This document shows positions 37,358 to 53,943 of a DNA stretch of 64,000 nucleotides, piece by piece. Numbering within the stretch: the first letter of the stretch is position 1; each line of letters starts with the position of its first letter. The stretch is taken from the NCBI GenBank assembly GCA_016868295.1, contig VGHJ01000007.1, positions 1 through 64,000 on the forward strand, read 5' to 3'. Under the pieces are notes generated by a model that searched no databases, was not told the DNA's origin, and was given only the letters and a program-made list of their open reading frames with translations. The position numbers and the translations under genes are program-made. The stretch comes from Betaproteobacteria bacterium. Its GTDB lineage: Bacteria > Pseudomonadota > Gammaproteobacteria > Burkholderiales > Rhodocyclaceae.

Positions 37358-38296
37358 ATGATCAAGCAAACCCCGGCCGACTGGCTGCTGCTCGTCACCA
37401 CCCTGCCGACGAAGAACGCCACGGCGCGCATGCGCCTGTGGCGCGCGCTCAAGGCGCACGGCTGCGCCACCCTGCGCGACGGCGCCTACCTGCTGCCGGA
37501 CCAGGCGAAGACGGAGCACGCCCTGGCGCGGCTCGCAGCCGACACCGAGGCGGCCGGCGGCAGCGCCCACCTGCTGCGGCTGGCGAGCCGCGACGCCGCG
37601 CAGGAGGCCGCCTTCCGCAAGGGGTTCGACCGCAGCGCCGACTACCGCGCCCTGCTCGATGCCCTCGGCAGGATGCCGAAGCGCGAGGTGGCGGCGCTGA
37701 AGGCGCTGAAGAACCTGCGCCGCGAGTTCGAGGCCATCGCCGCGACGGATTATTTCCCGGGCGAAGCCCGGCGCCAGGCGGAAGCAACGCTGCGGGCGCG
37801 CGAAGCCGCCGCCGGCGGCGAGCCGGCCAGCATCGCCGGCCGGGTGCGCCGTCTCGCGGCGGCTGACTTTCAGGGGCGCAACTGGGCGACGCGCAAACAC
37901 CCGTGGGTGGACCGCATGGCCTCGGCCTGGCTGATCCGCCGCTTCATCGACCGCAAGGCGAAGTTCCTCTGGCTCGACGACCCGAAGCGCTGCCCGAAGA
38001 AGGCGCTCGGCTTCGACTTCGACGGCGCGGCGTTCACCCACGTCGACGGCCGCGTGACGTTCGAGGTGCTGCTGGCGAGCTTCGGCCTCGAGGCCGACGC
38101 CGCCCTCGCCCGCATCGCCACCATCGTGCATTTTCTCGACGTCGGCGGCGTGCCGGTGGCCGAGGCGGCGGGCATCGAGGCGGTGCTGACGGGGCTCCGC
38201 GCCGTTTCATCCGACGACGACAAACTGCTGGCCGAGGCGAGCCGCGTCTTCGACGGCCTCTACAACAACTATCGACAGGAGAACCCCAATGAGTGA
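37358..38296 (+). CDS. chrB: Chromate resistance protein ChrB
   Basis: WLLLVTTLPTKNATARMRLWRALKAHGCATLRDGAYLLP; C-terminal TRKHPWVDRMASAWLIRRFIDRKAKFLWL. Confidence 0.9.
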   Translation: MIKQTPADWLLLVTTLPTKNATARMRLWRALKAHGCATLRDGAYLLPDQAKTEHALARLAADTEAAGGSAHLLRLASRDAAQEAAFRKGFDRSADYRALLDALGRMPKREVAALKALKNLRREFEAIAATDYFPGEARRQAEATLRAREAAAGGEPASIAGRVRRLAAADFQGRNWATRKHPWVDRMASAWLIRRFIDRKAKFLWLDDPKRCPKKALGFDFDGAAFTHVDGRVTFEVLLASFGLEADAALARIATIVHFLDVGGVPVAEAAGIEAVLTGLRAVSSDDDKLLAEASRVFDGLYNNYRQENPNE

Positions 38297-39638
38297 CGAC
38301 ATTCCCGCCGCGCCGCCGCCCGCGCCCACGCTGGGCGAGGCCTTCAAGTACTGGCTCAAGCTCGGCTTCATCAGCTTCGGCGGCCCCGCCGGACAGATCG
38401 CCATGATGCACCAGGAGCTGGTCGAGCGCCGCCGCTGGATCTCCGAGCACCGCTACCTGCACGCGCTCAATTACTGCATGCTGCTGCCGGGGCCGGAAGC
38501 CATCCAGCTCGCCATCTACATCAGCTGGCTGATGCACGGTGTCAGGGGCGCGGTCATGGCCGGCGTGCTGTTCTTCCTGCCGGCCTTCGCGCTGCTGTCG
38601 CTGCTCGCCGGCATCTACCTCGCCTACGGCGACGTGCCGCAGGTGGCCGGCGTCTTCTACGCCATCAAGCCGGCCGTGGTCGCCGTGGTGCTGTTCGCCG
38701 CCTGGCGCATCGGCTCGCGGGCGATCAAGAATGAAGTCCTGCTCGGCATCTGCGCGCTGGCCTTCGTCGGCATCTTCTTCTTCAAGATCGACTTTCCCTG
38801 GATCGTGCTGGCCGCCGGCATCCTCGGCGCATTGGGTAACGCAATGGGCGGCAAGCTCGCGAGCAAGTTCAAGGGCGGCGGCGGCCACGGCGCCTCGCAC
38901 AAGCAGTACGGCCCGGCGCTGATCGACGACGATACCCCGCCGCCGGCCCACGCCCGGTTCACCTGGACCCGGCTGGTCGTGACCACGCTGGCGTTCGTCA
39001 CCCTCGGCGCGGCGCCGCTGCTGGCGCTGCGGGGCAGCGGCACGCTGCTCGACATGGGCGAATTCTTCACCGCCGCCGCCTTCCTCACGATCGGCGGCGC
39101 CTACGCCGTGCTGCCCTACGTCTACCAGGCGGCGGTCGAGCACTTCGGCTGGCTCACCGGCCCGCAGATGATGGACGGCCTGGCGCTGGGCGAAACCACG
39201 CCGGGGCCGCTGATCATGGTGGTGACCTGGGTCGGCTACATCGGCGGCGTGACCAAGCAGGTGCTCGCCGATCCCGTCGCCGCCGGCCTCGCCGGCGCCA
39301 GCGTCGCCACCTTTTTCACTTTCCTGCCGAGCTTCTGGTTCATCATCGCCGGCGCCCCCGTGGTGGAAGCCACGCGCGGCGAGCTCAAGTTCACCGCGCC
39401 GCTCACCGCCATCTCCGCCGCCGTGGTCGGCGTGATCGTCAACCTCGCCGTCTTCTTCGCCTGGCACACCTTCTGGCCGCAGGCCAGCGAGGCCGCGCCC
39501 TTCGCCGGGCCGTTCGACTGGCTGTCGGTCGTCGTCGCCGTCGCCGCCTTCCTCGCCCTGTGGAAGTACAAGGTCGACATCATGAAAGTCATCGGCGCCT
39601 GCGCGCTGCTCGGCCTGGCGCTGTCCTTCGTGAGGTAG
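38289..39638 (+). CDS. chrA: Chromate efflux transporter ChrA
   Basis: FKYWLKLGFISFGGPAGQIAMMHQELVERRRWISEHRYLHALNYCMLLPGPEAIQLAIY; two-half transporter. Confidence 0.93.
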   Translation: MSDDIPAAPPPAPTLGEAFKYWLKLGFISFGGPAGQIAMMHQELVERRRWISEHRYLHALNYCMLLPGPEAIQLAIYISWLMHGVRGAVMAGVLFFLPAFALLSLLAGIYLAYGDVPQVAGVFYAIKPAVVAVVLFAAWRIGSRAIKNEVLLGICALAFVGIFFFKIDFPWIVLAAGILGALGNAMGGKLASKFKGGGGHGASHKQYGPALIDDDTPPPAHARFTWTRLVVTTLAFVTLGAAPLLALRGSGTLLDMGEFFTAAAFLTIGGAYAVLPYVYQAAVEHFGWLTGPQMMDGLALGETTPGPLIMVVTWVGYIGGVTKQVLADPVAAGLAGASVATFFTFLPSFWFIIAGAPVVEATRGELKFTAPLTAISAAVVGVIVNLAVFFAWHTFWPQASEAAPFAGPFDWLSVVVAVAAFLALWKYKVDIMKVIGACALLGLALSFVR

Positions 39639-40618: not shown

Positions 40619-41215
40619 CTAGTCGACCTCTTCCCAGCCGGTGATCATCGCCTTGAGGTGCGCGGTCGGCGTGTGGCCGGCGGTCGCCAGGTAGATGTGG
40701 GCGATGAAGAAAATGAGCATGAGGAAGGCGCCGATGGTATGGCCGGTGGCGACGAGGCCGAGGTCGAGGCCGCCCAGGCCCCAGGCGGCCCACCGGTCGT
40801 AGAAGAGGTAGAGCCAGCCGGTGATCCAGATCAGCGGGCTGATGAAGAGCAGCACGCCGAGGTAGGCCAGGCGCTGCAGCGGGTTGTGCTTCCGGAGCGT
40901 AGTCTGGCGGAACGGGTGCGGCGCGTGCGTGAAGATGCCCGAGAGGTAGTACTTCAGCATCGCCACCACCTTCTCCGTGGTCGGGATGTACTGCTTCCAC
41001 TCACCCGTGGTGAGGTGCCAGAAGATGGCGAAAACCCACAGGCCGACCAGCGTCCAGGCGGCGAGGGTGTGGAAACCCACCGCCTGCTCGAAGCCGAAGA
41101 CGCGATAGGCGCCGTGGATCTCGAAGCCGGTGAGCAGGAGGAACATGATCAGCGCGGCCTGCGACCAGTGCCAGAAGCGCTCGAATCTCTTGAAGATGTA
41201 GATGCGTTCAGCCAT
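40619..41215 (-). CDS. Cytochrome b561/thiosulfate reductase cytochrome b-like subunit
   Basis: MAERIYIFKRFERFWHWSQAALIMFLLLTGFEIHG; HTIGAFLMLIFFIAHIYLATAG. Confidence 0.85.
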   Translation of the reverse strand: MAERIYIFKRFERFWHWSQAALIMFLLLTGFEIHGAYRVFGFEQAVGFHTLAAWTLVGLWVFAIFWHLTTGEWKQYIPTTEKVVAMLKYYLSGIFTHAPHPFRQTTLRKHNPLQRLAYLGVLLFISPLIWITGWLYLFYDRWAAWGLGGLDLGLVATGHTIGAFLMLIFFIAHIYLATAGHTPTAHLKAMITGWEEVD

Positions 41216-41226
41216 TTTCGTTCTCC

Positions 41227-42843
41227 TCAGCCTTTGCGGGCGGCGACGATGCGCACGATGCCATGGCCGATCACGCCGAGCAGGGTGAGCAACGCCATGA
41301 TCCAGCCGGCCTTGTCGACCAGCGGATGGGCGTCGCGGCCGGGCAGGTAGACGCCCTCGATGCCTTCCAGGCGGCCATTCTTCATGTGGCACTCGGCGCA
41401 GCCGACGGCCTTGTCCTTCGGCGCCACCATGTGGGTGGTCGGCCAGTACATCTCGGTCTCGACGAAGTCGACCTTGCCGGAGAAGGGCGCGCCGGAGGTG
41501 CGCATGCCGGTCTCGATGGCCTTTTCCCAGTTCAGGTTCTTCCAGAAGCCGGTGTCGTCGTTGCCGGCCGTGTGCGGCGTCACCAGCGTGTTGTGCACCG
41601 GATCGTAGGGCTGCTTGCCGCGCATGATCTTCATCGGCCAGATGAGCGACTTGCCGTCGGTCGGGCTGCCGCCGATGCGGTTGATCTGCGTCGGCCCACC
41701 GTTACCCTGGCCCTTCACGATCTTGTCGCCGAGCAGCGTGTAGGTGATCTCGCCGTTGAACCAGCGGTATTCCGGCTTGACGTTCTCGCCGATCACGAAG
41801 TCGCCCTTGTGCGAGGCGTAGATGTCGTGGCCCTTCTTGTCCTTGACGGTGAACTGCTTGCCGTCCTTCAGCTTGCCGGCGGTGGACCAGTCCCACACCA
41901 TCTTGGTCGGCACGCCGCCGCGCGCGAAGGTCGGGATGTGGCAGGTCTGGCAGGCCACCTTGTTGGCGTGGTGGTTGAGGCGGGCCGATTCCTTCGCCTC
42001 CTTGTGCGGCGCGTTGCCGTGGCAGGCGACGCAGGTGGCCGGATTGCGCTTCTTCTCGTCCTTGCCGCGGATGTGCGCGCCGCCCTTGTCGAGCGCCGTC
42101 GGCGTGTAGCGGCTGCCCGGCACGTCGTGGCTGGAGGCCTTGTGGCAGGTGCCGCAGGTGAAGTCGAGTCCCTCGGCATCCATGTGCACGTCCACGTCCG
42201 CCGTCGGCGCCGCCAGCGAGGTGTCCATGTCGCCGTGCTTGACGCCGTCGCCGCCGCCGCCGCGGAAGTGGCAGGCGCCGCAGGTGTCGCGGCTGGTCTT
42301 GCCGATCTTCTGCGCGACCTTGGCGAGGTCGACCGGCTTGATCATCTTGCCCGAGCCGGGCGGCAGCTCGATCGGCGCGCCCACCACCGGGTTGCCGGCG
42401 AGGCCGGGCGGCTTCTGGTAGAGGCCGGTCGTGTCGTGGCAGACCAGGCAGTCGACGTTCTCTTCCCTGGCGAAGTCGAAGCTGGCGTCCTTCCAGCCGT
42501 AGCCGACGTGGCAGGCGGTGCAGGCAGCGTAGTTCGAGGGGATCGAGATGCAGAAGTTGTTGAGCACGTTCTTCTTGCCGAGCCGCTGCTTGTTCTCGGG
42601 ATTCATGAACTCCCAGGTCCAGTGCTTGGTGCGATGCACCTGACGGGCGGCTTCGGTGTGGCAGGAGAGACAGGCCTTGGTGACCTCGGGACCGGACTTG
42701 AACGGGCCGTTCAGTTCCTTGAACTTGGTGTGGTCGGCCGTGGTGTTCAGCTTGACCGGCGGCGGGTCGCTGGCCAAGGCGGAGGCGGATGCGAACAGCG
42801 CGAGCCAGCCGGCCATCGCAACGCCAATCGAAGTACGTAACAT
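41227..42843 (-). CDS. Octaheme c-type cytochrome, tetrathionate reductase (OTR) family
   Basis: Eight CxxCH motifs (CLSCH, CTACH, CLVCH, CGACH, CGTCH, CVACH, CQTCH, CAECH); signal peptide and C-terminal TM anchor. Confidence 0.88.
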   Translation of the reverse strand: MLRTSIGVAMAGWLALFASASALASDPPPVKLNTTADHTKFKELNGPFKSGPEVTKACLSCHTEAARQVHRTKHWTWEFMNPENKQRLGKKNVLNNFCISIPSNYAACTACHVGYGWKDASFDFAREENVDCLVCHDTTGLYQKPPGLAGNPVVGAPIELPPGSGKMIKPVDLAKVAQKIGKTSRDTCGACHFRGGGGDGVKHGDMDTSLAAPTADVDVHMDAEGLDFTCGTCHKASSHDVPGSRYTPTALDKGGAHIRGKDEKKRNPATCVACHGNAPHKEAKESARLNHHANKVACQTCHIPTFARGGVPTKMVWDWSTAGKLKDGKQFTVKDKKGHDIYASHKGDFVIGENVKPEYRWFNGEITYTLLGDKIVKGQGNGGPTQINRIGGSPTDGKSLIWPMKIMRGKQPYDPVHNTLVTPHTAGNDDTGFWKNLNWEKAIETGMRTSGAPFSGKVDFVETEMYWPTTHMVAPKDKAVGCAECHMKNGRLEGIEGVYLPGRDAHPLVDKAGWIMALLTLLGVIGHGIVRIVAARKG

Positions 42844-43054
42844 GATCATTCTCCCTGGCGATAGGTGGAGAGGAGTCTAGGCGTTTGTAAATCGATCCGT
42901 GTTGACCCTTCTCAATGAAAGAATAGAATATTTGTAGATAATTAAGTAACGATATTGTGATTAATTTTGTGCATCGCCGAATGCATCGCATTGATCCACG
43001 CCGCATGACGCCGATGCTATGTTTCGATCAAATCTCTTTTGGAAAGGGAGCATC

Positions 43055-43441
43055 ATGAAACTCAAGACCGCATTGCCGCTGCTGGCCGCCACCGCGCTGT
43101 TCGCCTCCGCCGCCCAAGCCTACGATGCCGACTGGAAACGCGGCCGCGTCTACTACCGCAGCGTGTGCACCTCCTGCCACGTCGCCTCGCCCGTCGGCCA
43201 GATCAATCCGAGCAGCAGGACCAAGGCCGAATGGGCGGCCTACATGCAGGCCGACAAGCACGGCAAGGGCAAGGAGACCGTCAGGCAATACGTCAGCAAG
43301 CAGTACCGCGCCAGCATCAAGTCGGGCAACAAGGCCGCCGAGAAATTCGCCGACGTGCCCGACCAGGAGCTGTTCGAGGACGTCAAGGTCTTCCTCATGC
43401 GCGGCGCCAAGGACGGCGAGAGCCCGGCCAGCTGCAGCTGA
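43055..43441 (+). CDS. Periplasmic monoheme c-type cytochrome
   Basis: Signal peptide MKLKTALPLLAATALFASAAQA; single CTSCH. Confidence 0.75.
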   Translation: MKLKTALPLLAATALFASAAQAYDADWKRGRVYYRSVCTSCHVASPVGQINPSSRTKAEWAAYMQADKHGKGKETVRQYVSKQYRASIKSGNKAAEKFADVPDQELFEDVKVFLMRGAKDGESPASCS

Positions 43442-43547
43442 TCGCCCGCGCGGCCCGCCAGGGCGGCGCAGTCAACAACATGGAGCCGCGTGAGCGGCGA
43501 ACGACCGTCACCCCCTTCCCCGGAAGGGGGACGGGGGGAAGGGGATC
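43441..43547 (-). repeat. Multi-hairpin repeat element (copy B)
   Basis: Reverse complement CTTCCCCCCGTCCCCCTTCCGGGGAAGGGGGTGACGGTCGTTCGCCGCTCACGCGGCTCCATGTTGTTGACTG aligns with 8559-8666. Confidence 0.7.
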
Positions 43548-43549
43548 CA

Positions 43550-44788
43550 ATGAGTGAAGGAAGCGGCTGGCTGGCCGGCTTCAAGGCCGACTACGACAGG
43601 CTCTTCGTCGAGGAATGGTCGCCCTACGTCGGCGCCATCCTGCTGATGCTGGTGATCGTCGCCCTGATGATCAACGGCCTGTTCTGGGGCGTCTTCGGCG
43701 GCGTGCGCCACTGGGGCGATGCCTTCAACCACCTGATCGGCCTCGCCCCGCTCATCGGCGTGCCCAAGGTGGAGGAAGGCTTCCTCACCCACCGCATGTC
43801 GCTGATGAACATCATGCTGCTGCTGGGCGCCTTCAGCGCGGCGCTGATGTCGCGGCAGTTCCTCGTCAACCGCCCGCCGAAGCTCGAACTCGTCTGGGCC
43901 GCGCTGGGCGGCACGCTGATGGGCATCGGCGCCTCGCTCGCCGGCGGTTGCACCACCGGCGGCTTCTTCAACCCGGTGCTGCATTCCTCGCCGGCCGGCT
44001 GGATGATGTGGGCGGGGCTGCTCGCCGGCGCCGTGATCGGCCTCAAGCTGCTGCTGTGGACGCTCGACCACATCGAGTGGGGCACGCAGGCGCCGCCGAC
44101 GCTGGAGACGCCGCCCGCCCTGCTCAAGGCCTATCCCTTCATCGGCCTGGCCATCGTCGTCGGCGTGCTCGTGTGGACCGCCGGCTGGTACGGCTCGCCC
44201 GACACGGTGCTGGTCTCGCGCGCCGTCATCGTGCTGCTCGGCTTCTGCATCGGCTTCGTCATGCACCGCTCGCGCCTGTGCTTCGCGCGCGCCTTCCGCG
44301 AGCCGTTCATGACCGCCGAGGGCGACATGACCAAGGCGCTGATCCTGGCGCTGGCCATCGGCATCCCCGTCGCCGCCTTCCTCTTCCAGAAAAAGGTGAT
44401 CGATCCCTACATCGCCATCCCGCCGACCTTCTGGATCGGCTCGCTTCTCGGCGGCCTCGTCTTCGGCATCGGCATGGTGTTTGCCGGCGGCTGCGCCTCC
44501 GGCTCGCTCTGGCGCATGGGCGAGGGCCACGTCAAGCTGTGGGTGGCGATGTTCTTCTTCGCCTGGATGGGCTCGACCGCCAGCGCCCTGCTGAAGAAGG
44601 CCGGCCTCACTTCCATCGACGAGGAGAACGTCGAGACCTTCGAGATCACCGCCGTCGGCTACCAGGCCTACTGGCCGGACCTGCTGCCCGGCTGGGGCTG
44701 GACGCTGCTCGTCGGCGGCGCGCTGCTGGCCCTCTGGTACGCCTTCGTGCGCTACAACGAATCGACCGAGAAATTCACCGTGCTTTGA
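43550..44788 (+). CDS. YeeE/YedE family transporter (thiosulfate uptake-like)
   Basis: IGASLAGGCTTGGFFNPVLHSS and VFGIGMVFAGGCASGSLWRMGEG. Confidence 0.9.
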   Translation: MSEGSGWLAGFKADYDRLFVEEWSPYVGAILLMLVIVALMINGLFWGVFGGVRHWGDAFNHLIGLAPLIGVPKVEEGFLTHRMSLMNIMLLLGAFSAALMSRQFLVNRPPKLELVWAALGGTLMGIGASLAGGCTTGGFFNPVLHSSPAGWMMWAGLLAGAVIGLKLLLWTLDHIEWGTQAPPTLETPPALLKAYPFIGLAIVVGVLVWTAGWYGSPDTVLVSRAVIVLLGFCIGFVMHRSRLCFARAFREPFMTAEGDMTKALILALAIGIPVAAFLFQKKVIDPYIAIPPTFWIGSLLGGLVFGIGMVFAGGCASGSLWRMGEGHVKLWVAMFFFAWMGSTASALLKKAGLTSIDEENVETFEITAVGYQAYWPDLLPGWGWTLLVGGALLALWYAFVRYNESTEKFTVL

Positions 44789-44810
44789 CAACCACTACGA
44801 GGAGACCACC

Positions 44811-45584
44811 ATGATCAGCAAGCTCAAGCTGTTTGCCCTCGCCACTGCCGTCGCACTGGCCGCCGGCTGCGCCCAGTCGCCGTCGACACCGGCCGGCGCC
44901 CAGTCCGCCGAATCGGCGGAGGGCCTGGTCCGCTACAGGAACGTCGTCGATTACGCCTACGTGAAGAAGCACGCCGCGCTGCCGCGCGACGAAAAGGCCG
45001 CACTCGTCGTCGACTCGCGTCCCGCCGCGCGCCGCTACGACATCGGCCACATCTCTGGCGCCATCAACATACCCGACACGAACTTCGACAAGCTGGCGCC
45101 CAGCATGCTGCCCGCCGACAAGAAGGCCGAGATCATCTTCTACTGCCAGGGGCCGACCTGCGACCTGTCGGCGAAATCGGCGCTGAAGGCCGAGAAGCTC
45201 GGCTACACCAACATCAAGGTCTATGAGGGCGGCATCCCCGACTGGGAGGCCAAGGGCGAACCCCTGTCCGTCAGCACGGCCTTCATGCAGAAGATCATCG
45301 CCGAGAAGGCCGACATCGTGCTGATCGACTCGCGGCCCGCCCGCCGCGTCCAGAACGAGGGCACCATCCCCGGCGCCATCAACATTTCCGACAGCAGCTT
45401 CGACAAGGAAGTCGGCAAGCTGCCGCAGGACAAGCAGAAGGAGATCATCTTCTTCTGCCAGGGCTTCGCCTGCGATCTGTCCGACAAGTCGGCGAAGAAG
45501 GCGATGGCCCTCGGCTACAAGAAGGTCCGCACCTATGCCGCCGGCCATCCGGCCTGGAAGGCCGCCGCCGAAGGCAAGAAATAA
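44811..45584 (+). CDS. Lipoprotein with two rhodanese domains
   Basis: Lipobox LAAGC; two rhodanese repeats with FYCQGPTCDLS and FFCQGFACDLS. Confidence 0.85.
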   Translation: MISKLKLFALATAVALAAGCAQSPSTPAGAQSAESAEGLVRYRNVVDYAYVKKHAALPRDEKAALVVDSRPAARRYDIGHISGAINIPDTNFDKLAPSMLPADKKAEIIFYCQGPTCDLSAKSALKAEKLGYTNIKVYEGGIPDWEAKGEPLSVSTAFMQKIIAEKADIVLIDSRPARRVQNEGTIPGAINISDSSFDKEVGKLPQDKQKEIIFFCQGFACDLSDKSAKKAMALGYKKVRTYAAGHPAWKAAAEGKK

Positions 45585-45639
45585 ACCGCACTCGGGAATG
45601 GCGGCCTACGCCATTCCCGAAACCTATGGAGATCGGAAC

Positions 45640-46062
45640 ATGACCCGCACGTTTCTGAAAACCGTTCTATGCGCCGCCGCGCTGGCGTTCGCCCCGCTCG
45701 CCCCGGCCGCCGACATCGCCATCGAGCAAGGCAAGGAAAAGGGCAGCATCACCGTCGCCTCCTTCGAGCGCATCCTCAAGGAAAATCCCTCGCAGATCGT
45801 CGTCATCGACGTGCGCGACGAGAAGGAAGTGAAGAAGGGCACCTTCCCCGGCGCCCTCAACATCCCGGTCGGCGACATCGAGAAGAAGCTCGGCGAACTG
45901 CCGAAGGACAAGCCGATCGTGTTCACCTGCTCGACCGGCGCCCGCTCCGGCGAGGCCTACGACACCGTCAAGATGCTCGGCGGCAGCAGCGGCATCACCG
46001 CCTACTTCCTCGACGCCGACGTGACCTTCGCCGACGGCAAGTACAGCATCAAGCCGCGCTGA
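45640..46062 (+). CDS. Periplasmic single-domain rhodanese
   Basis: Signal peptide; VIDVRDEKEVKKGTFPGALNIPVGDIEKK; FTCSTGARSGEAYDTV. Confidence 0.85.
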   Translation: MTRTFLKTVLCAAALAFAPLAPAADIAIEQGKEKGSITVASFERILKENPSQIVVIDVRDEKEVKKGTFPGALNIPVGDIEKKLGELPKDKPIVFTCSTGARSGEAYDTVKMLGGSSGITAYFLDADVTFADGKYSIKPR

Positions 46063-46210
46063 GCGGCCGTCTTCCCTTCCTCCTCCGACCGCCGGCGCCG
46101 GCAGAAGTCAGCGCCGGCGGCACGGCGGCGGATACCCGTCAGCCGTCGTGACGGTCGGATCAACCCGTGGTACTGTCGGACACCATTCGAATCGAAGATC
46201 CCCGCCGGCC

Positions 46211-47293
46211 ATGACCATACACGGCAAACCGATCCAGGAACGCATCGACTGGCTGTTCGACCTCGCCGACCGCCACGGCGCCGACTACCGCAACCCGGAG
46301 GCCTGGCTGGCGCGCGAGCGCTACCTCGCCGAGCACCCGACCGCCATCGCCGTGCTCAAGTGCATGGACGGGCGCGTGAACATCCCGGTGGTCACCAACA
46401 CGCCGGTCGGCATCCTGATGCCCTTCCGCAACCTCGGCGGCATGTTCGACCTCGGCTGGCCGCACCTCGGCGAGGTGCTCGCCAGCTTTGTTTCGCGAAT
46501 GGTGCATACCGGCCGCCGCGTGCTGTTCCTCATCACCTACCATTTCTCGAAGGGCGACCCGCAGCGCGGCTGCGCCGGCTTCCGCTACGACACGGAGGCC
46601 GCCATCGCCCACACCCTGCAGATCCGCCGCCAGGTCGAGCACATCTTCGGCGCCGCCCACGGCACCGTGTACCCGCTCGTCTGCGGACTCGAGACCGACG
46701 AGGACGCGCTGATCGTGCACGGCAGCGACGGCCGCCGGCTCGACCTGTCGACGCTGGACGCCGGGGGCCGCGCGGCGCTGGAGGGCGAACTCGCCGCGCT
46801 GCTGCCCGACATGCCGGCGCAGATGCGCGCCGACCTGCTGCCCCTGCTGCAGGGCAACCTCGTGCGCATCGACACGGTGCGCGCCCAGATCGCGCGGCGC
46901 GAGCGCGCGCTCGACATCGAGCACCGCGAGTGGATGATCTGCCTCGGCCGCGGCTTCGATTTCCTGCACACGCCCAACGTCGCGCTGATCATCGGCCCCT
47001 ACAGCCCCAATCTCGACGAGCCGATCCGCATGGCCGCCGGCATCATCGAGGCGAACATGCGGGCCGGCCGCGTGCCCGACGACGGCTTTCTGCTGCTCGC
47101 CTCGGTGCCCTACGACGAGATCGGCGTCGACCGCGCCCGCGCCGAGCTGAAGAGCCGCTTCCTCTCGCGCTTCGCCGCCGAGGTCGTCGGCCGTGAATAT
47201 CCCGCCCTTGCCGGGCGGATGTTCGCGCGCACCGCGGTGCTCGACTGGCGCTCGCGCCGGCTCGAGCGGCTCACCGACGACGAATCGCACTGA
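46211..47293 (+). CDS. CsoSCA-like (carboxysome shell carbonic anhydrase domain) protein
   Basis: LKCMDGRVNIP (beta-CA-like C-x-D-x-R), ITYHFSKGDPQRGCAGF (H-x9-C putative Zn ligands). Confidence 0.65.
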   Translation: MTIHGKPIQERIDWLFDLADRHGADYRNPEAWLARERYLAEHPTAIAVLKCMDGRVNIPVVTNTPVGILMPFRNLGGMFDLGWPHLGEVLASFVSRMVHTGRRVLFLITYHFSKGDPQRGCAGFRYDTEAAIAHTLQIRRQVEHIFGAAHGTVYPLVCGLETDEDALIVHGSDGRRLDLSTLDAGGRAALEGELAALLPDMPAQMRADLLPLLQGNLVRIDTVRAQIARRERALDIEHREWMICLGRGFDFLHTPNVALIIGPYSPNLDEPIRMAAGIIEANMRAGRVPDDGFLLLASVPYDEIGVDRARAELKSRFLSRFAAEVVGREYPALAGRMFARTAVLDWRSRRLERLTDDESH

Positions 47294-47308
47294 CCAGGGA
47301 AAAACCGC

Positions 47309-49045
47309 ATGCGCCTAACTGCCCTCAAGCTGTCCGGTCTGATCCACGGTTTGCGCTTCGACAACCTGCGCGGCGACCTCTTCGGCGGCATCACGGCGGC
47401 TGTGGTGGCGCTGCCGCTGTCGCTGGCCTTCGGCGTCGCCTCCGGCGCCGGGCCGGTGGCGGGCCTCTACGGCGCCATCTGCGTCGGCTTCTTCGCGGCG
47501 CTGTTCGGCGGCACGCCGGCGCAGGTCTCGGGCCCCACCGGACCGATGACGGTCGTCATGGCCGCCATCTTCATGCAATACACGTCGCTCTTCCCGGACG
47601 ACCCCGGCAAGGGGGCGGTGCTCGCCTTCACGGTGGTGATGCTGGGCGGCGGCTTCCAGATCCTCTTCGGCCTGCTCAGGCTGGGCAAGTACATCAACCT
47701 CGTGCCGGCGCCGGTGATCTCCGGCTTCATGACCGGCATCGGCGTCATCATCATCCTGCTTCAGCTGGCGCCGCTGCTCGGCCAGCCCGTCGCCGCCGGC
47801 CCCCTGGAGGCGTCGCGCGCCCTGCCGCAGGTCTTCGCCAACGTCGTGCCCGGCGCCGCCCTCCTCGGCGGCTTCACGCTGCTGCTGGTCTACCTCTGGC
47901 CGAAGCGGCTGAACCGCATCCTGCCGGCGCCGCTGCTGGCGCTGCTGGCGGGCAGCCTCGGCCTCTATGTGGTTTCCGGCGGCGTCATCGTCTCGCGCGA
48001 AGTCGACGGCAGGACACTCCACTTCCTCGGCCAGGCCAGCATCCTCGGCGACATCCCCGGCGGCCTGCCGTCGGTCGTCTTTCCCGACATCGACCTGGCG
48101 CTGGCCGCCGACATGATCAAATCGGCCCTGATGCTGGCCGTGCTGGGTTCCATCGATTCCCTGCTCACCTCGCTGGTGGCCGACAACATCACGCGCACCT
48201 ACCACGAGTCCGACCGCGAGCTGGTTGGCCAGGGCATCGGCAACGCCGTTTCCGGCCTGTTCGGCGGCCTGCCCGGCGCCGGCGCCACCATGCGCACCGT
48301 GGTGAACGTGCGCGCGGGCGGGCTGACGCCGATCTCCGGCATGACGCACGCCGTCGGCCTGCTGGCCGTGGCCCTCGGCGCGGGCGCGCTCGCCAGGTAT
48401 GTCCCCCACGCCGTGCTGGCCGGCATTCTCGTCAAGGTCGGCACCGACATCATCGACTGGGACTACCTGAAGCGCATGCGCCTCATCTCGATCGCCGGAT
48501 CGGCGATGATGCTGACGGTGTTCTTCCTCACCGTTTTCGTGGACCTGATCACCGCCGTGGCGGTGGGCATGATCATGGCCAGCCTGGTGCTCATGAAACG
48601 CATCACCGACATGCAGCTGGCCAGCATCACCGCCATCACCGAGCCGCACGAGGAGGCGCCCCTTTCCCCCGAGGAGCGGGAGCTGCTGGCCGCGGCGGGC
48701 GGCCGGGTCCTGCTCTACCACATGGGTGGGCCGATGAGCTTCGGCGCCGCCAAGGACATGGTGCGGCGGCTGGCCGCCTTCGACCAGTACGATGCCCTCG
48801 TGCTCGACCTCTCGGACGTGCCCAGCATCGACTACACCACCACGCGCAGCATCGAGGACATGATCCAGCGCGCCCAGGGCAGCGGGCGCGCGGTCTTCCT
48901 CACCGGCGAGCCGCCGCAGGTCATGGACATGCTGGAGAAGCACGGCGTGCTCGCGCAACTGGCCGAGGGCGGCCACCTGCCCACCCGCCGCGAGGGGCTG
49001 GCCGCTGCGGTGCGCGGCCTGGCGCCGGTGCGCCAACAAACATAG
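47309..49045 (+). CDS. SulP family anion transporter with STAS domain (first copy)
   Basis: GITAAVVALPLSLAFGVASGAGPVAGLYGAI; C-terminal STAS VLDLSDVPSIDYTTTRSIEDMI. Confidence 0.9.
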   Translation: MRLTALKLSGLIHGLRFDNLRGDLFGGITAAVVALPLSLAFGVASGAGPVAGLYGAICVGFFAALFGGTPAQVSGPTGPMTVVMAAIFMQYTSLFPDDPGKGAVLAFTVVMLGGGFQILFGLLRLGKYINLVPAPVISGFMTGIGVIIILLQLAPLLGQPVAAGPLEASRALPQVFANVVPGAALLGGFTLLLVYLWPKRLNRILPAPLLALLAGSLGLYVVSGGVIVSREVDGRTLHFLGQASILGDIPGGLPSVVFPDIDLALAADMIKSALMLAVLGSIDSLLTSLVADNITRTYHESDRELVGQGIGNAVSGLFGGLPGAGATMRTVVNVRAGGLTPISGMTHAVGLLAVALGAGALARYVPHAVLAGILVKVGTDIIDWDYLKRMRLISIAGSAMMLTVFFLTVFVDLITAVAVGMIMASLVLMKRITDMQLASITAITEPHEEAPLSPEERELLAAAGGRVLLYHMGGPMSFGAAKDMVRRLAAFDQYDALVLDLSDVPSIDYTTTRSIEDMIQRAQGSGRAVFLTGEPPQVMDMLEKHGVLAQLAEGGHLPTRREGLAAAVRGLAPVRQQT

Positions 49046-49154
49046 ACCTCCGTAATGCGCGCATAACCCCGTTCTACCCAGCGACGAGACGGCCGGGGAT
49101 AGAATTACGCTTTGCTCGTGCACGGCGCGAGCCGCGTCGCTCCCGAAACGATCC

Positions 49155-51293
49155 ATGTTCGCCAACAAGCTGCTGCTGCGCCTGTTCCCCTTCCTGGCCT
49201 GGTTCCCGGTCAATGCCGTCATCCTGCGCGGCGACCTGATCGCCGGCATCACCGGCGCGCTGGTGCTGGTGCCCAAGGCGATGGCCTACGCGCAGCTCTC
49301 CGGACTGCCGGTTTATTACGGCCTCTACGTGGCCCTGGTGCCGGCCTTCCTCGGCGCCCTGTGGGGCTCCTCGCGCCAGCTCGCCACCGGGCCGGTGGCC
49401 ATCGTCTCGCTGATGACCGCCGCCGCCATCACGCCCTTCGCGGTGCCCTTCAGCGAGGAATTCATCGGCCTCGCCCTGCTGCTCGCCCTGATGGTGGGCA
49501 TCATCCAGTTCGGCCTCGGCGTGCTCAAGCTCGGCACCATCGTCAATTTCGTCTCGCATCCGGTGATCCTCGGCTTCATGAACGCCGCGGCCATCATCAT
49601 CGCGCTCTCCCAGCTCGACATGCTGCTCGGCATCCCGAAGGGCCGCTCGGATTCCTTCCTCAAGGACATCTGGGAGATGCTGGCCTACCTGCCGCTGACC
49701 CACCTGCCGACGCTGGCGATGTCCGTCTTCGCCCTCGCCCTGATGCTCGGCCTGAAGAAGATCGAGCCGCTCGCCAAGCCGAGCGTCCTCATCGCCGTGG
49801 TCATCACCGCCCTGGTCAGCTATGCCGTCGGCTTCGAGCACAAGACCAGGGGCGCGCCGGAGGAGATCGCCGATGCCGACGTCCAGGCGCTGGCCGCCGC
49901 CTACGTCCAGACCGATGCGCAGATCGACCTGCTCAACAAGGCGATCACGGCGAAATCGGTGCAGTTGCGCCAGGCCGAGAAGGCGCACGCCGAGCAATCC
50001 ACCGTCAACCTCGACCACCAGATCGACCTGATGCGCATCGAACTGGCGGGCGCCGAGAGACAGAACGGCGAGCGCATGAAGCAGTTGCGCCGGGTCCATT
50101 TCGAGCGCGCCCGGGCCCCCGAGAACGAGTCCGCGCCGCTCTACATAGCCGGCCAGGTGCCGGCCGGCGTCGAGAGCGACGGCCGCCAGTGGCACATCAA
50201 GAAGATCGAGAAGGGCAGCATGGCGCTGATGGGCGGCGGCGACGTCGTCGGCAAGATCCCCTCCGGGCTGCCCTCCTTCCGCCTGCCCGCGCTCAACCTC
50301 GACGCCATCCTCGCCCTGCTCTCGGCCGCTCTGATCGTCGCGCTGGTGGCCTTCATGGAGTCCATCTCGATGGCCAAGGCGATGGCGGCCAAGACCAAGG
50401 ACAAGATCGACCCGAACCAGGAGCTCATCGGCCAGGGCCTCGCCAACATCGGCGGCGCCTTCTTCCAGTCCTACCCGGCCTGCGGCTCCTTCACCGGCTC
50501 GGCCATCAACCTGCAGGCGGGAGCGAAGACCGGCTTCGCCATGGTCTTCAACGGCCTCTTCGTCGGCGTCACGCTGCTGTTCCTGACGCCCTGGCTCTAC
50601 CACCTGCCGAAGGCGGTGCTGGCGGTGATCATCCTGCTTGCCGTCACCAGCCTGATCACGCCGGGCGCGCTCAGGCACACCTGGAAGGCGAGCCGCGCCG
50701 ACGGCATCGTCGCCCTCGTCACCTTCGTCGCCACCTTGCTCGCCGCGCCCCACCTCGACAAGGGCATCATGATCGGCGCCGTGCTCGCCATCGTGCTGCA
50801 CCTCTACGGCACCATGAAGCCGCGCGTGGCCATCCTCGGCCGCATGGCCGACGGCACGCTGCGCGACGCCAGGGTCAACAGCCTGCCCGCCTCGAAGGTG
50901 GTCACCGCCGTGCGCTTCGACGGCCGCCTCTACTTCGCCAACGTCTCCTACTTCGAGGACGCCGTGCTCAACGCCGTGGCGGAGAACCCGGATGCGCCCT
51001 ACGTGCTGATCGTCGGCGACGGCATCAACGACCTCGACGCCTCCGGCGAGGAGGTGATCCACCACCTGGTCGAGCGCCTCAACGAAAACGGCATCGTCGT
51101 GCTGTTCTCCGGCCTGAAGAAGCAGGTCATCGACGTCATGCAGGCCACCGGCCTGTGGGACAAGATCGGCGAGAAACGCTTCTTTCCCACCGCCGAGCAG
51201 GCGCTCACGCGCATCTACGAGCGCAGCGAATACGCCGGCGAAGACGACCCGCTCAAGCCGCCGCCGCGAGGCGCCACGCTCCTGCACGACTGA
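49155..51293 (+). CDS. SulP family anion transporter with internal coiled-coil insert (second copy)
   Basis: GDLIAGITGALVLVPKAMAYAQLSGLPVYYGLYVALVPAFLGALWGSSRQLATGPVAIVSL; STAS; about 120-aa charged insert after YAVGFEHKT. Confidence 0.9.
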   Translation: MFANKLLLRLFPFLAWFPVNAVILRGDLIAGITGALVLVPKAMAYAQLSGLPVYYGLYVALVPAFLGALWGSSRQLATGPVAIVSLMTAAAITPFAVPFSEEFIGLALLLALMVGIIQFGLGVLKLGTIVNFVSHPVILGFMNAAAIIIALSQLDMLLGIPKGRSDSFLKDIWEMLAYLPLTHLPTLAMSVFALALMLGLKKIEPLAKPSVLIAVVITALVSYAVGFEHKTRGAPEEIADADVQALAAAYVQTDAQIDLLNKAITAKSVQLRQAEKAHAEQSTVNLDHQIDLMRIELAGAERQNGERMKQLRRVHFERARAPENESAPLYIAGQVPAGVESDGRQWHIKKIEKGSMALMGGGDVVGKIPSGLPSFRLPALNLDAILALLSAALIVALVAFMESISMAKAMAAKTKDKIDPNQELIGQGLANIGGAFFQSYPACGSFTGSAINLQAGAKTGFAMVFNGLFVGVTLLFLTPWLYHLPKAVLAVIILLAVTSLITPGALRHTWKASRADGIVALVTFVATLLAAPHLDKGIMIGAVLAIVLHLYGTMKPRVAILGRMADGTLRDARVNSLPASKVVTAVRFDGRLYFANVSYFEDAVLNAVAENPDAPYVLIVGDGINDLDASGEEVIHHLVERLNENGIVVLFSGLKKQVIDVMQATGLWDKIGEKRFFPTAEQALTRIYERSEYAGEDDPLKPPPRGATLLHD

Positions 51294-51315
51294 CCTTTCC
51301 ATCGAGGAGATCTCC

Positions 51316-51840
51316 ATGTCCCTTTCCGGAACCGCGCGCGACCTCATGACGCCGCTTGCCAGCTTTCCGCACGTCCATGTCGACCAGACGCTGCGCGACG
51401 TCTTCGCGATGCTGAAGGAGAAATACGCCGCCGCCGAGCAGTTCCGCAGCGTGCTGGTGCTCAACCGCACCGGCCAGCCCGTCGGCCGCATCACGCTGCA
51501 CCAGCTGCTGCGCGCGCTGCTGCCCGACTACCTCGCGGCCCACCCCACGCACTACGAAGGCGCAAGCGCCGACCTCGCCTCGCTCGCGCTGCTGTGGCAG
51601 GAGGACAGCGACGAAAGCTGCCGCAGGGCCGCGGCGCAGCGTGTCGGCGACCACATGCTGCCGGTCGCCGCGCCGCTGGCGCCCGACGACCCGCTGACAC
51701 TGGCGCTCTACCGCATCGCGGTTGCCGATTTCAACCTCGTGCCGGTCGCCGAGGCAGGCCGCGTCATCGGCGTCGTGCGCATCGTCGACCTGCTGACCGA
51801 GGTCGCCAACGCCGTGCTCGACGAAGGGATCGCCCGATGA
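51316..51840 (+). CDS. CBS domain protein
   Basis: LMTPLASFPHVHVDQTLRDVFAMLKEKYAAAEQFRSVLVLNRTGQPVGRITLHQLLRAL; second CBS-like half. Confidence 0.8.
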   Translation: MSLSGTARDLMTPLASFPHVHVDQTLRDVFAMLKEKYAAAEQFRSVLVLNRTGQPVGRITLHQLLRALLPDYLAAHPTHYEGASADLASLALLWQEDSDESCRRAAAQRVGDHMLPVAAPLAPDDPLTLALYRIAVADFNLVPVAEAGRVIGVVRIVDLLTEVANAVLDEGIAR

Positions 51841-53324
51841 GCAACGAGACCGCAGGCGACGCCGCCCTCGCCACCGCCGCCGCACCGTTCGACTGGAAGC
51901 GCTGGACCGCACTCGTCGGCGGCTTCGCGATCTTCCTGCTCGTTTATTTCTCGCCGCCCTGGGGCGTCGCCATCGACCCTTCCGGCAAGGAATTCGTCCT
52001 TTCGCCGCAAGGCAAGGCCGCCATCGGCCTGTTCCTCATGGCCGGCATCTGGTGGGTGTTCGAGGTGATCCCGATCGGGGTGACCGCCATCGCCATCGGC
52101 GTGTTCCAGGCGCTGTTCCTGATCCGGCCGGCCAAGGAGGCCTTCCGCGACTTCATGGATCCGTCGGTGATGTTCATCTTCGGCTCGCTGGTGATCGGCA
52201 TGGCCTTCACCAAGACGGGCCTGACGAAGCGCATCGCCTACAAGATGCTGGCCGTCGTCGGCGAGAACACGCGGACCATCCTGCTCGGCAGCATGGTCGT
52301 CACCGCGCTGCTCGCCCACGTCATGGCCCATACGGCGGCGGCGGCCACCGTGTTCCCGGTGCTGCTCGCCATCCTCGCCCTCTACAAGGAAGGCGACGGC
52401 CCGTCGCGCTTCGGCAAGAGCCTGTTCATGGGCATGGCCTGGGCCGCCGGCGCCGGCAGCGTGATCACCCTGCTCGGTTCGGCGCGCGCGCCCGCCGCCG
52501 CCTCCATGTTCACCGAATTCACCGGCCGGCAGGTCGATTTCTTCGACTTCCCCCTCTATCTGGGCCTCATCGGCTGGGGCATGGTGTTCCTCATCTGGCT
52601 CTACCTCTCCGTCGTCTTCAAGCCCTCGAAGGCGACGATTCCCGGCCTGCGCCAGAAGGTGGGCAAGCTCTCCGCCGCGCTCGGCCCGATGTCGGGCAAG
52701 GAGAAGTTCGTCCTCGCCTGCGTGGCGCTGGTCATCCTGCTGATGGCCCTGCAGTCCGCGGTTCCGGCGCTGAAGGGCGTTGACCGGGCGGCGCTGATGC
52801 TCACTTCGACGCTGCTGTTCTTCATTTTCGGCGTGCTGACGGTGAAGGATCTCGAGGAGATGCCCTGGAACATCGTGCTGCTCTTCTCCGGCGCCATGAG
52901 CATCGGCTTCTGCCTGTGGAAGACCGGAGCGGCAGAGTGGATGGCGGTGCAGTGGCTGGGGCTGCTCAAGGACGCGCACTGGTGGGTGTTCGTCATGGGC
53001 ATCGCCGCCTTCGTGCTGGCGATGACCAACTTCATCATGAACGTCGCCGCCATCGCCATCGCGCTGCCGGTGTCGCTGGTGATCGCGCGCTACCTAGGCG
53101 TGGCGCCGGACGTGATCTTCTACGCCTCGCTGGTCACCGCCGGCATGCCCTTCGTGCTGCTGATCGGCGCGGCGCCCAACGCCATCGCCTACGAGTCGAA
53201 GCAGTTCACGCCGGGCGAGTTCTTCCGGCACGGCCTGGCGATGAGCATCATCCTGCTCGTCGTGCTCGGCCTGGCCATGGTCAGCCTCTGGCCGCTGTTC
53301 GGCATGCCGGTGCTCGTCGGATAA
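51837..53324 (+). CDS. SLC13/DASS family anion transporter
   Basis: AAIGLFLMAGIWWVFEVIPIGVTAIAIGVFQ, LLFSGAMSIGFCLWKTGAAEWMA; start overlaps the CBS gene stop. Confidence 0.87.
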   Translation: MSNETAGDAALATAAAPFDWKRWTALVGGFAIFLLVYFSPPWGVAIDPSGKEFVLSPQGKAAIGLFLMAGIWWVFEVIPIGVTAIAIGVFQALFLIRPAKEAFRDFMDPSVMFIFGSLVIGMAFTKTGLTKRIAYKMLAVVGENTRTILLGSMVVTALLAHVMAHTAAAATVFPVLLAILALYKEGDGPSRFGKSLFMGMAWAAGAGSVITLLGSARAPAAASMFTEFTGRQVDFFDFPLYLGLIGWGMVFLIWLYLSVVFKPSKATIPGLRQKVGKLSAALGPMSGKEKFVLACVALVILLMALQSAVPALKGVDRAALMLTSTLLFFIFGVLTVKDLEEMPWNIVLLFSGAMSIGFCLWKTGAAEWMAVQWLGLLKDAHWWVFVMGIAAFVLAMTNFIMNVAAIAIALPVSLVIARYLGVAPDVIFYASLVTAGMPFVLLIGAAPNAIAYESKQFTPGEFFRHGLAMSIILLVVLGLAMVSLWPLFGMPVLVG

Positions 53325-53391: not shown

Positions 53392-53943
53392 ATGGGACAC
53401 CGCCTCTCGAAGATCTACACGCGCACCGGCGACGCCGGCACCACCGGCCTGGCCGACGGCTCGCGCGTGTCCAAGGACTCCGCACGCATCGCCGCGCTGG
53501 GCGAGCTCGACGAACTGAACTCGGTCATCGGCCTGCTCCTCACCGAGGAACTGCCAGACGATATCCGGCATCTCCTCACCGGCATCCAGCACGACCTGTT
53601 CGATCTCGGCGGCGAGATGGCCATCCCCGGCTCGGCGCTGTTGAACGGGAAAAGCGTCGGCGAGCTCGAGGCGGCGATCGACCGCTGGAACGCGGAACTC
53701 GAGCCGCTGAAGGAATTCCTGCTGCCCGGCGGCACGCGCGCGGCGGCGCTGGCCCACCTCGCCCGCGCGGTGTGCCGGCGCGCCGAGCGGCAACTGGTCA
53801 CCGTCGCCGCCAGCGAAGACATCGGCGAAACCGGCCGGAAATACGTGAACCGCCTCTCGGACCTGCTCTTCGTGCTCGGCCGCACGCTCAACCGCCTGGC
53901 CGGGCGCGGCGACGTGCTCTGGCAGAAGGACCGGGCGCGCTGA
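53392..53943 (+). CDS. Cob(I)yrinic acid a,c-diamide adenosyltransferase (PduO type)
   Basis: KIYTRTGDAGTTGLADGSRVSKDSARIAALGELDELNSVIGLL; NRLSDLLFVLGRTLNR. Confidence 0.93.
   Translation: MGHRLSKIYTRTGDAGTTGLADGSRVSKDSARIAALGELDELNSVIGLLLTEELPDDIRHLLTGIQHDLFDLGGEMAIPGSALLNGKSVGELEAAIDRWNAELEPLKEFLLPGGTRAAALAHLARAVCRRAERQLVTVAASEDIGETGRKYVNRLSDLLFVLGRTLNRLAGRGDVLWQKDRAR

Follow-up and report, generated by a model that had tools for sequence, protein, structure and literature searches.

The window, a stretch of 64,000 nucleotides from a betaproteobacterium (contig VGHJ01000007.1), carries at positions 46211 to 53324 five genes which probably (at a probability of about 0.68) represent an inorganic carbon acquisition module in a carboxysome-less autotroph with a form II Rubisco; activities, substrates and direction of transport are predicted. 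The first-pass annotation had proposed a non-carboxysomal system for CO2 or bicarbonate at this locus. Fold and zinc ligands of the encoded carbonic anhydrase, the BicA-type SulP transporter next to it, the lack of a detectable shell protein, the enriched genomic context and the content of the same slot in congeners, all obtained by computation, agree with this proposal.

Gene cluster and host genome

All five genes are located on the forward strand. The first encodes a beta-class carbonic anhydrase of the CsoSCA2 (non-cso) type with 360 aa (46211..47293; zinc ligands C51, H111 and C121, catalytic residues D53 and R55), and its ATG start at 46211 was favoured over an earlier GTG at 46148 by the starts of the homologues. 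After a gap of 15 bp follows SulPa, a BicA-type SulP transporter with a STAS domain (578 aa; 47309..49045), and then a second SulP-STAS protein, SulPb (712 aa; 49155..51293), a protein with paired CBS domains (174 aa; 51316..51840) and a sodium-coupled anion carrier of the SLC13/DASS family (495 aa; 51837..53324, alternative start 51834). With the start at 51837, the SLC13 gene shares 4 bp with the CBS gene. Pfam and NCBIfam profiles confirmed both SulPs, the CBS protein and SLC13, and the gene order read at first from the open reading frames, including the 15-bp gap and the overlapping ends, proved to be exact. The five genes apparently form one transcription unit and would be co-transcribed; scans for promoters and terminators yielded nothing usable.

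The assembly to which the window belongs comprises 2.67 Mb in 118 contigs and is 99% complete. It contains one Rubisco, of form II and on another contig, and one canonical beta-CA. No BMC shell protein was detected in the 118 contigs, in which genes can be missed. In the same contigs DabA (PF10070) gave no match, with a search that was positive in 20 of 120 relatives, and no Hyf-like large subunit was found beyond the ordinary NuoD.

Identity of the carbonic anhydrase

The protein encoded at 46211 is a genuine relative of CsoSCA and, judged from sequence and structural model, a predicted carbonic anhydrase. It belongs to a family which was described earlier as CsoSCA2 (PMC9164163), where it is called widespread but unstudied, and as non-cso CsoSCA (PMC11086599). 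The Pfam profile CsoSCA_cat (PF20686) matched with E=1.8e-8 (34.6 bits, cut-off 21.5), and a phmmer search against the PDB returned CsoSCA chains only. The carboxysomal equivalog of NCBIfam, TIGR02701, reached 44 bits with a cut-off of 241, which marks the protein as kin of the carboxysomal enzyme and not as this enzyme itself. In the phmmer alignment, KCMDGR (C51, D53, R55) falls on the CxDGR of CsoSCA from H. neapolitanus, and H111-x9-C121 on its second and third zinc ligands (C173, H242 and C253 in the numbering of that enzyme). The likeness of the C-x-D-x-R and H-x9-C arrangements to CsoSCA, noticed from the letters alone, thus concerns the zinc-binding and catalytic residues, and all five of these are invariant in two sets of homologues (n=15 and n=38). 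A comparison of a predicted structure with CsoSCA and beta-CAs had been suggested and pointed the same way: the five best Foldseek matches of the AlphaFold2 model (mean pLDDT 86.8) in the PDB were CsoSCA structures (E 1e-14, TM 0.70-0.73), the zinc ligands are kept, and canonical beta-CAs trailed with E-values of 2e-5 or worse.

The CxDxR motif begins at residue 51 in CsoSCA2 and at residue 173 in CsoSCA of H. neapolitanus; CsoSCA2 is therefore without the long N-terminal domain of the carboxysomal enzyme. This domain binds Rubisco and forms the hexamer. Since the protein possesses neither this domain nor a location in a cso operon, it is not a carboxysomal CsoSCA. In the tree both types form separate clades, and the CsoSCA2 family occurs outside of carboxysome loci in many phyla.

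Genomic neighbourhoods of CsoSCA2

A search of 120 relatives gave CsoSCA2 orthologues (66-82% identity) in 14 genomes besides that of the window; none of the 15 congeners in the set has one. A scan of the GTDB representatives gave 491 coding stretches for CsoSCA2, of which the best 80 were kept. At some loci crude gene calls chose the wrong strand, and the conclusions there rest on tblastn. Neighbours were counted within 10 kb in 61 well-flanked loci with at least 8 kb on either side, the window included. A DabA complex was present in 12, a Hyf-like complex in 8, a SulP in 7 and any of these in 21 loci. For DabA, simple arithmetic (20 DabA-bearing genomes among 120, ~3.5 Mb each) predicts about 0.1% of such neighbourhoods by chance. 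CsoSCA2 is encoded next to DabA complexes, Hyf-like complexes and SulPs at a frequency far above expectation. No such neighbour is present in two-thirds of the 61 loci, among them most of those from Accumulibacter. Loci that are related do not count as independent cases, and at least eight state changes for the presence of the neighbours were counted on a quick tree. The CsoSCA2 of the window falls into a clade of five members (with L057, L059, L078 and L093; SH-aLRT 95), all of which have such neighbours. As to the conservation of the neighbourhood, which the first-pass annotation had named as a check, the recurrence of DabA, Hyf-like complexes and SulP near CsoSCA2 (21 of 61) speaks for it, but the exact pair does not recur: SulPa directly follows CsoSCA2 in none of the 100 other loci and the pair was seen here alone among 101.

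CsoSCA2 lies beside, and is mostly convergent with, a series of genes for proton-antiporter-like subunits and DabA in L043, L044, L045, L059, L076, L099, L107, L108, L115, L118 (where the contig ends within DabB), L119, L031, L159 and L161. Pfam confirmed the identity of DabA (E=1e-224). A Hyf-like complex, often with a SulPb-type protein at its head, is located near CsoSCA2 in L021, L025, L057, L077, L078, L111, L113 and L160. The CxxC motif is missing in all four Hyf-like large subunits examined, which makes it unlikely that these are NiFe hydrogenases. NAD or Fe-Ni hydrogenase genes, or permeases, are reported in the vicinity of non-cso genes (PMC11086599); in the loci studied here these neighbours can be named as DabA and Hyf-like/SulP complexes. 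In one genome (G085), CsoSCA2 is positioned between a Hyf-like/SulP cluster and a form I cbbL, about 5 kb from the latter. In another (G113) it lies about 16 kb from cbbL and coexists with a carboxysomal CsoSCA. CsoSCA2 is also found in genomes without a Rubisco match, e.g. G035 and G050.

Apart from these complexes, an iron-containing alcohol dehydrogenase is encoded near CsoSCA2 in 10 loci, often directly upstream (L043:8811-9986, L021, L045, L057, L059, L076-L079, L093), and is sometimes accompanied by a divergent NAD-binding oxidoreductase. Loci mostly without neighbours related to inorganic carbon are those of Accumulibacter (L046-L069, L086, L088) and of Desulfobulbaceae (L072, L094, L095, L098).

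The slot beside the cobalamin adenosyltransferase

The cluster is bordered on the left by genes for a YedE-type transporter and two rhodaneses (43490..46062) and on the right by a cobalamin adenosyltransferase gene (53392..53943), all on the forward strand. An orthologue of the adenosyltransferase is present in 15 of the 16 genus members searched, the genome of the window included. A Hyf-like cluster with SulP is located next to it in seven of the eight congeners with enough flanking sequence; the eighth (G009) lacks a Hyf large subunit and has a SulP at the slot. G010 retains both borders, with the cytochrome-YedE block on the left (YedE 94% identical), the adenosyltransferase on the right, and Hyf-like genes and SulPb between them; for YedE of the congener locus L236 the identity is 94%. 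In the species of the window this interval is occupied by CsoSCA2, SulPa, SulPb, CBS and SLC13, and a search of its genome revealed no Hyf-like complex at another place. The simplest reading is a replacement of the Hyf-like/SulP complex by a functional substitute. The substitution is what we infer, because the function of the Hyf-like complex is putative here; it is possibly an uncharacterised inorganic-carbon or ion-pumping complex, and a role in inorganic carbon supply would have to be assumed for it as well.

The Hyf-like (hydrogenase-4-type) complex with SulP occurs in the congener loci L232-L237 and L240, and also in L025, L057, L078, L113 and L160; its large subunit is NuoCD-like and, in the four examined, devoid of CxxC nickel motifs. 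The YedE-rhodanese block is also found upstream of CsoSCA2 in L043, L057 and L076. In the window it is part of a sulfur-metabolism block (40619-46062) consisting of cytochrome b561, a multihaem cytochrome c, a small cytochrome c, the YedE-type transporter and the two rhodaneses, and this larger block is conserved in the same three loci. Further upstream (37358-39638), ChrB and a chromate-family transporter are encoded, and ChrB suggests chromate as the substrate; bicarbonate transport has been reported for a member of the Chr family (PMC10880623).

Transporters of the cluster

From its sequence, SulPa is a predicted Na+-coupled bicarbonate importer. Its best solved relative is the transmembrane domain of cyanobacterial BicA (PDB 6KI1), with 55% identity over this domain and a bit score threefold that of the runner-up. 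With the NCBIfam BicA model SulPa reached 593 bits, which is below the equivalog cut-off of 880, and with the general sulP model 268 bits. Like BicA, SulPa has a STAS domain and the IDxLLT and GAT motifs, which are lost in SulPb. These motifs contain the residues by which BicA binds sodium and bicarbonate. Homologues of SulPa with 55-68% identity exist in other orders of the class and none above 50% was found among the 120 relatives; SulPa was therefore probably acquired horizontally. Around the BicA-type SulPs of 19 other genomes, no canonical beta-CA was matched (blastp against a small reference set only) and one carboxysome locus (G469) was present, so that the context of SulPa itself says little.

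SulPb carries an insert of ~120 residues between the two halves of its transport domain. Among solved structures, plant SULTR4;1 and prestin are closest to it, and its likeness is to SulPs of the sulfate type rather than to BicA. SLC13 matches the Pfam family Na_sulph_symp, and the CBS protein is a probable ligand-sensing regulator of the transporters. The CBS gene is conserved behind SulPb in L093, G055 and G113. The SLC13 protein was detected in three of the 120 relatives, all with CsoSCA2, and is encoded behind SulP and CBS in both others. In G055, where a sigma-54 two-component system lies alongside, SLC13 follows SulPb and CBS (85, 77 and 52% identity). In G113, SulP, CBS and SLC13 are flanked on one side by a DabA complex that has a further SulPb and on the other by the genes for CsoSCA2, the carboxysome and Rubisco, the whole set spanning about 50 kb. 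The L093 locus reads CsoSCA2, histidine kinase, regulator, SulPb and CBS, after which the contig ends.

The SulP preceding CBS and SLC13 in G113 (L128:15288-17879; 863 aa) possesses a STAS domain and a C-terminal universal stress protein domain. Pairs of a histidine kinase and a sigma-54 response regulator accompany SulPb-type transporters in L093:3791-6582, L216, L128, L233 and L244 and could regulate the set.

Relation to known systems

As in the window, the CsoSCA2 or non-cso enzymes of the literature are compact, N-terminally truncated and encoded outside carboxysome loci; the accessible parts of PMC9164163 and PMC11086599 do not identify their neighbours as DabA or Hyf-like/SulP complexes and describe no BicA-type SulP directly downstream. 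The pairing of SulP and carbonic anhydrase, put forward as known in the first-pass annotation, has its precedent in can2-sulP of Acidithiobacillus ferrooxidans, a Rubisco-bearing bacterium in which the two genes are a few bases apart and for which bicarbonate uptake was proposed (PMC6458275). CsoSCA2 and SulPa are likewise adjacent and co-directional. However, can2-sulP joins a canonical beta-CA to a SulP of clade C, and the BicA-type clade is stated as not associated with Can2 (PMC6458275), whereas CsoSCA2 and a BicA-type SulP are combined here. With DAB/DAC complexes the module shares its presumed role, and many CsoSCA2 genes are convergent beside DabA operons, but DabA was not detected in the 118 contigs of the window's genome. 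A Hyf cluster beside a carbonic anhydrase is known in A. caldus.

Carbonic anhydrase and transporter activities without a shell, predicted here for a natural gene cluster, were engineered as Dab2 and Can in E. coli: the combination improved Rubisco-dependent growth without carboxysomes, and either carbonic anhydrase or Dab2 alone restored growth of carbonic-anhydrase-null Cupriavidus necator (PMC9894237). SulP-anhydrase pairs, the Hyf-anhydrase cluster of A. caldus, CsoSCA2 and DAB are all known, and the module is a variant of the SulP-anhydrase arrangement and no new class. To our knowledge, within the open-access literature, three things are new: a BicA-type SulP as the partner of CsoSCA2, the repeated association of CsoSCA2 with DabA and Hyf-like/SulP complexes, and the swap at one slot. 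The link to these complexes and to BicA-type transport gives CsoSCA2 a testable role. It also provides natural counterparts of a state with carbonic anhydrase and transporter alone, which was proposed from the synthetic strains as a step in the evolution of CO2-concentrating mechanisms (PMC9894237). With five genes, the cassette is small enough to be tested directly in a heterologous host.

Proposed function and alternative explanations

In the proposed mechanism, SulPa would import bicarbonate, probably together with sodium, and cytosolic CsoSCA2 would interconvert bicarbonate and CO2. CO2 would then be supplied to the form II Rubisco and bicarbonate to bicarbonate-using carboxylases. SulPb, CBS and SLC13 might act as a linked anion-transport and regulatory set, for which bicarbonate import, export of sulfate as counter-ion or exchange of both would fit, and the module as a whole would stand in for the Hyf-like/SulP complex of the congeners. 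Against the proposal stand the risk of futile CO2 leakage, when an anhydrase free in the cytosol works next to a bicarbonate pump, and the conventional beta-CA already present in the genome. More tentatively, and at well below even odds, several unrelated machines for the uptake of inorganic carbon (DabA, Hyf-like/SulP and BicA-type SulP) may share CsoSCA2 as their dedicated partner in the cytosol and be swapped as modules at one slot. Natural carboxysome-free CO2-supply systems would then exist, from which the carboxysomal anhydrase was recruited, and SulPb might also exchange sulfate, as product of sulfur oxidation, for bicarbonate.

SulPb and SLC13 could also be sulfate carriers, with sulfur genes upstream. 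Extended to the entire cluster, both SulPs and SLC13 would carry sulfate or other sulfur oxyanions for an upstream sulfur metabolism of the thiosulfate/tetrathionate type, with the anhydrase as a chance neighbour or for pH balance. The YedE transporter, the rhodaneses and the multihaem cytochrome, the relationship of SulPb to SULTR4;1 and its lack of the BicA motif residues, and the Na_sulph_symp match of SLC13 fit such a function. Nevertheless it is unlikely, since SulPa scores far better as BicA than as a general SulP, CsoSCA2 repeatedly adjoins DabA and Hyf-like complexes, and SulP, CBS and SLC13 of G113 lie beside a DabA complex and a carboxysome cluster.

A somewhat smaller chance is given to a module that serves mainly the bicarbonate demand of biosynthetic carboxylases or pH homeostasis, rather than CO2 supply to Rubisco. 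The model in PMC9894237 favours relief of bicarbonate deficiency, a role in pH or bicarbonate supply was suggested for can2-sulP (PMC6458275), and some genomes with CsoSCA2 show no Rubisco match; however, the window's own genome does possess Rubisco, and in G085 and G113 CsoSCA2 is found in the vicinity of cbbL. A CsoSCA relative in a carboxysome-less CO2 fixer could finally be a chance leftover of a carboxysome that has been lost, but this is very improbable in view of the short N-terminus, the separate clade, the invariant catalytic residues, the coexistence of both types in G113 and the wide distribution of the family apart from carboxysomes.

The reading frame of an apparent fusion protein of 1386 aa in G060 was judged to run across genuine genes that lie in other frames. 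A very divergent CsoSCA2-like protein (L164 of G209; 37% identity, branch length 4.35) possibly represents a further subfamily.
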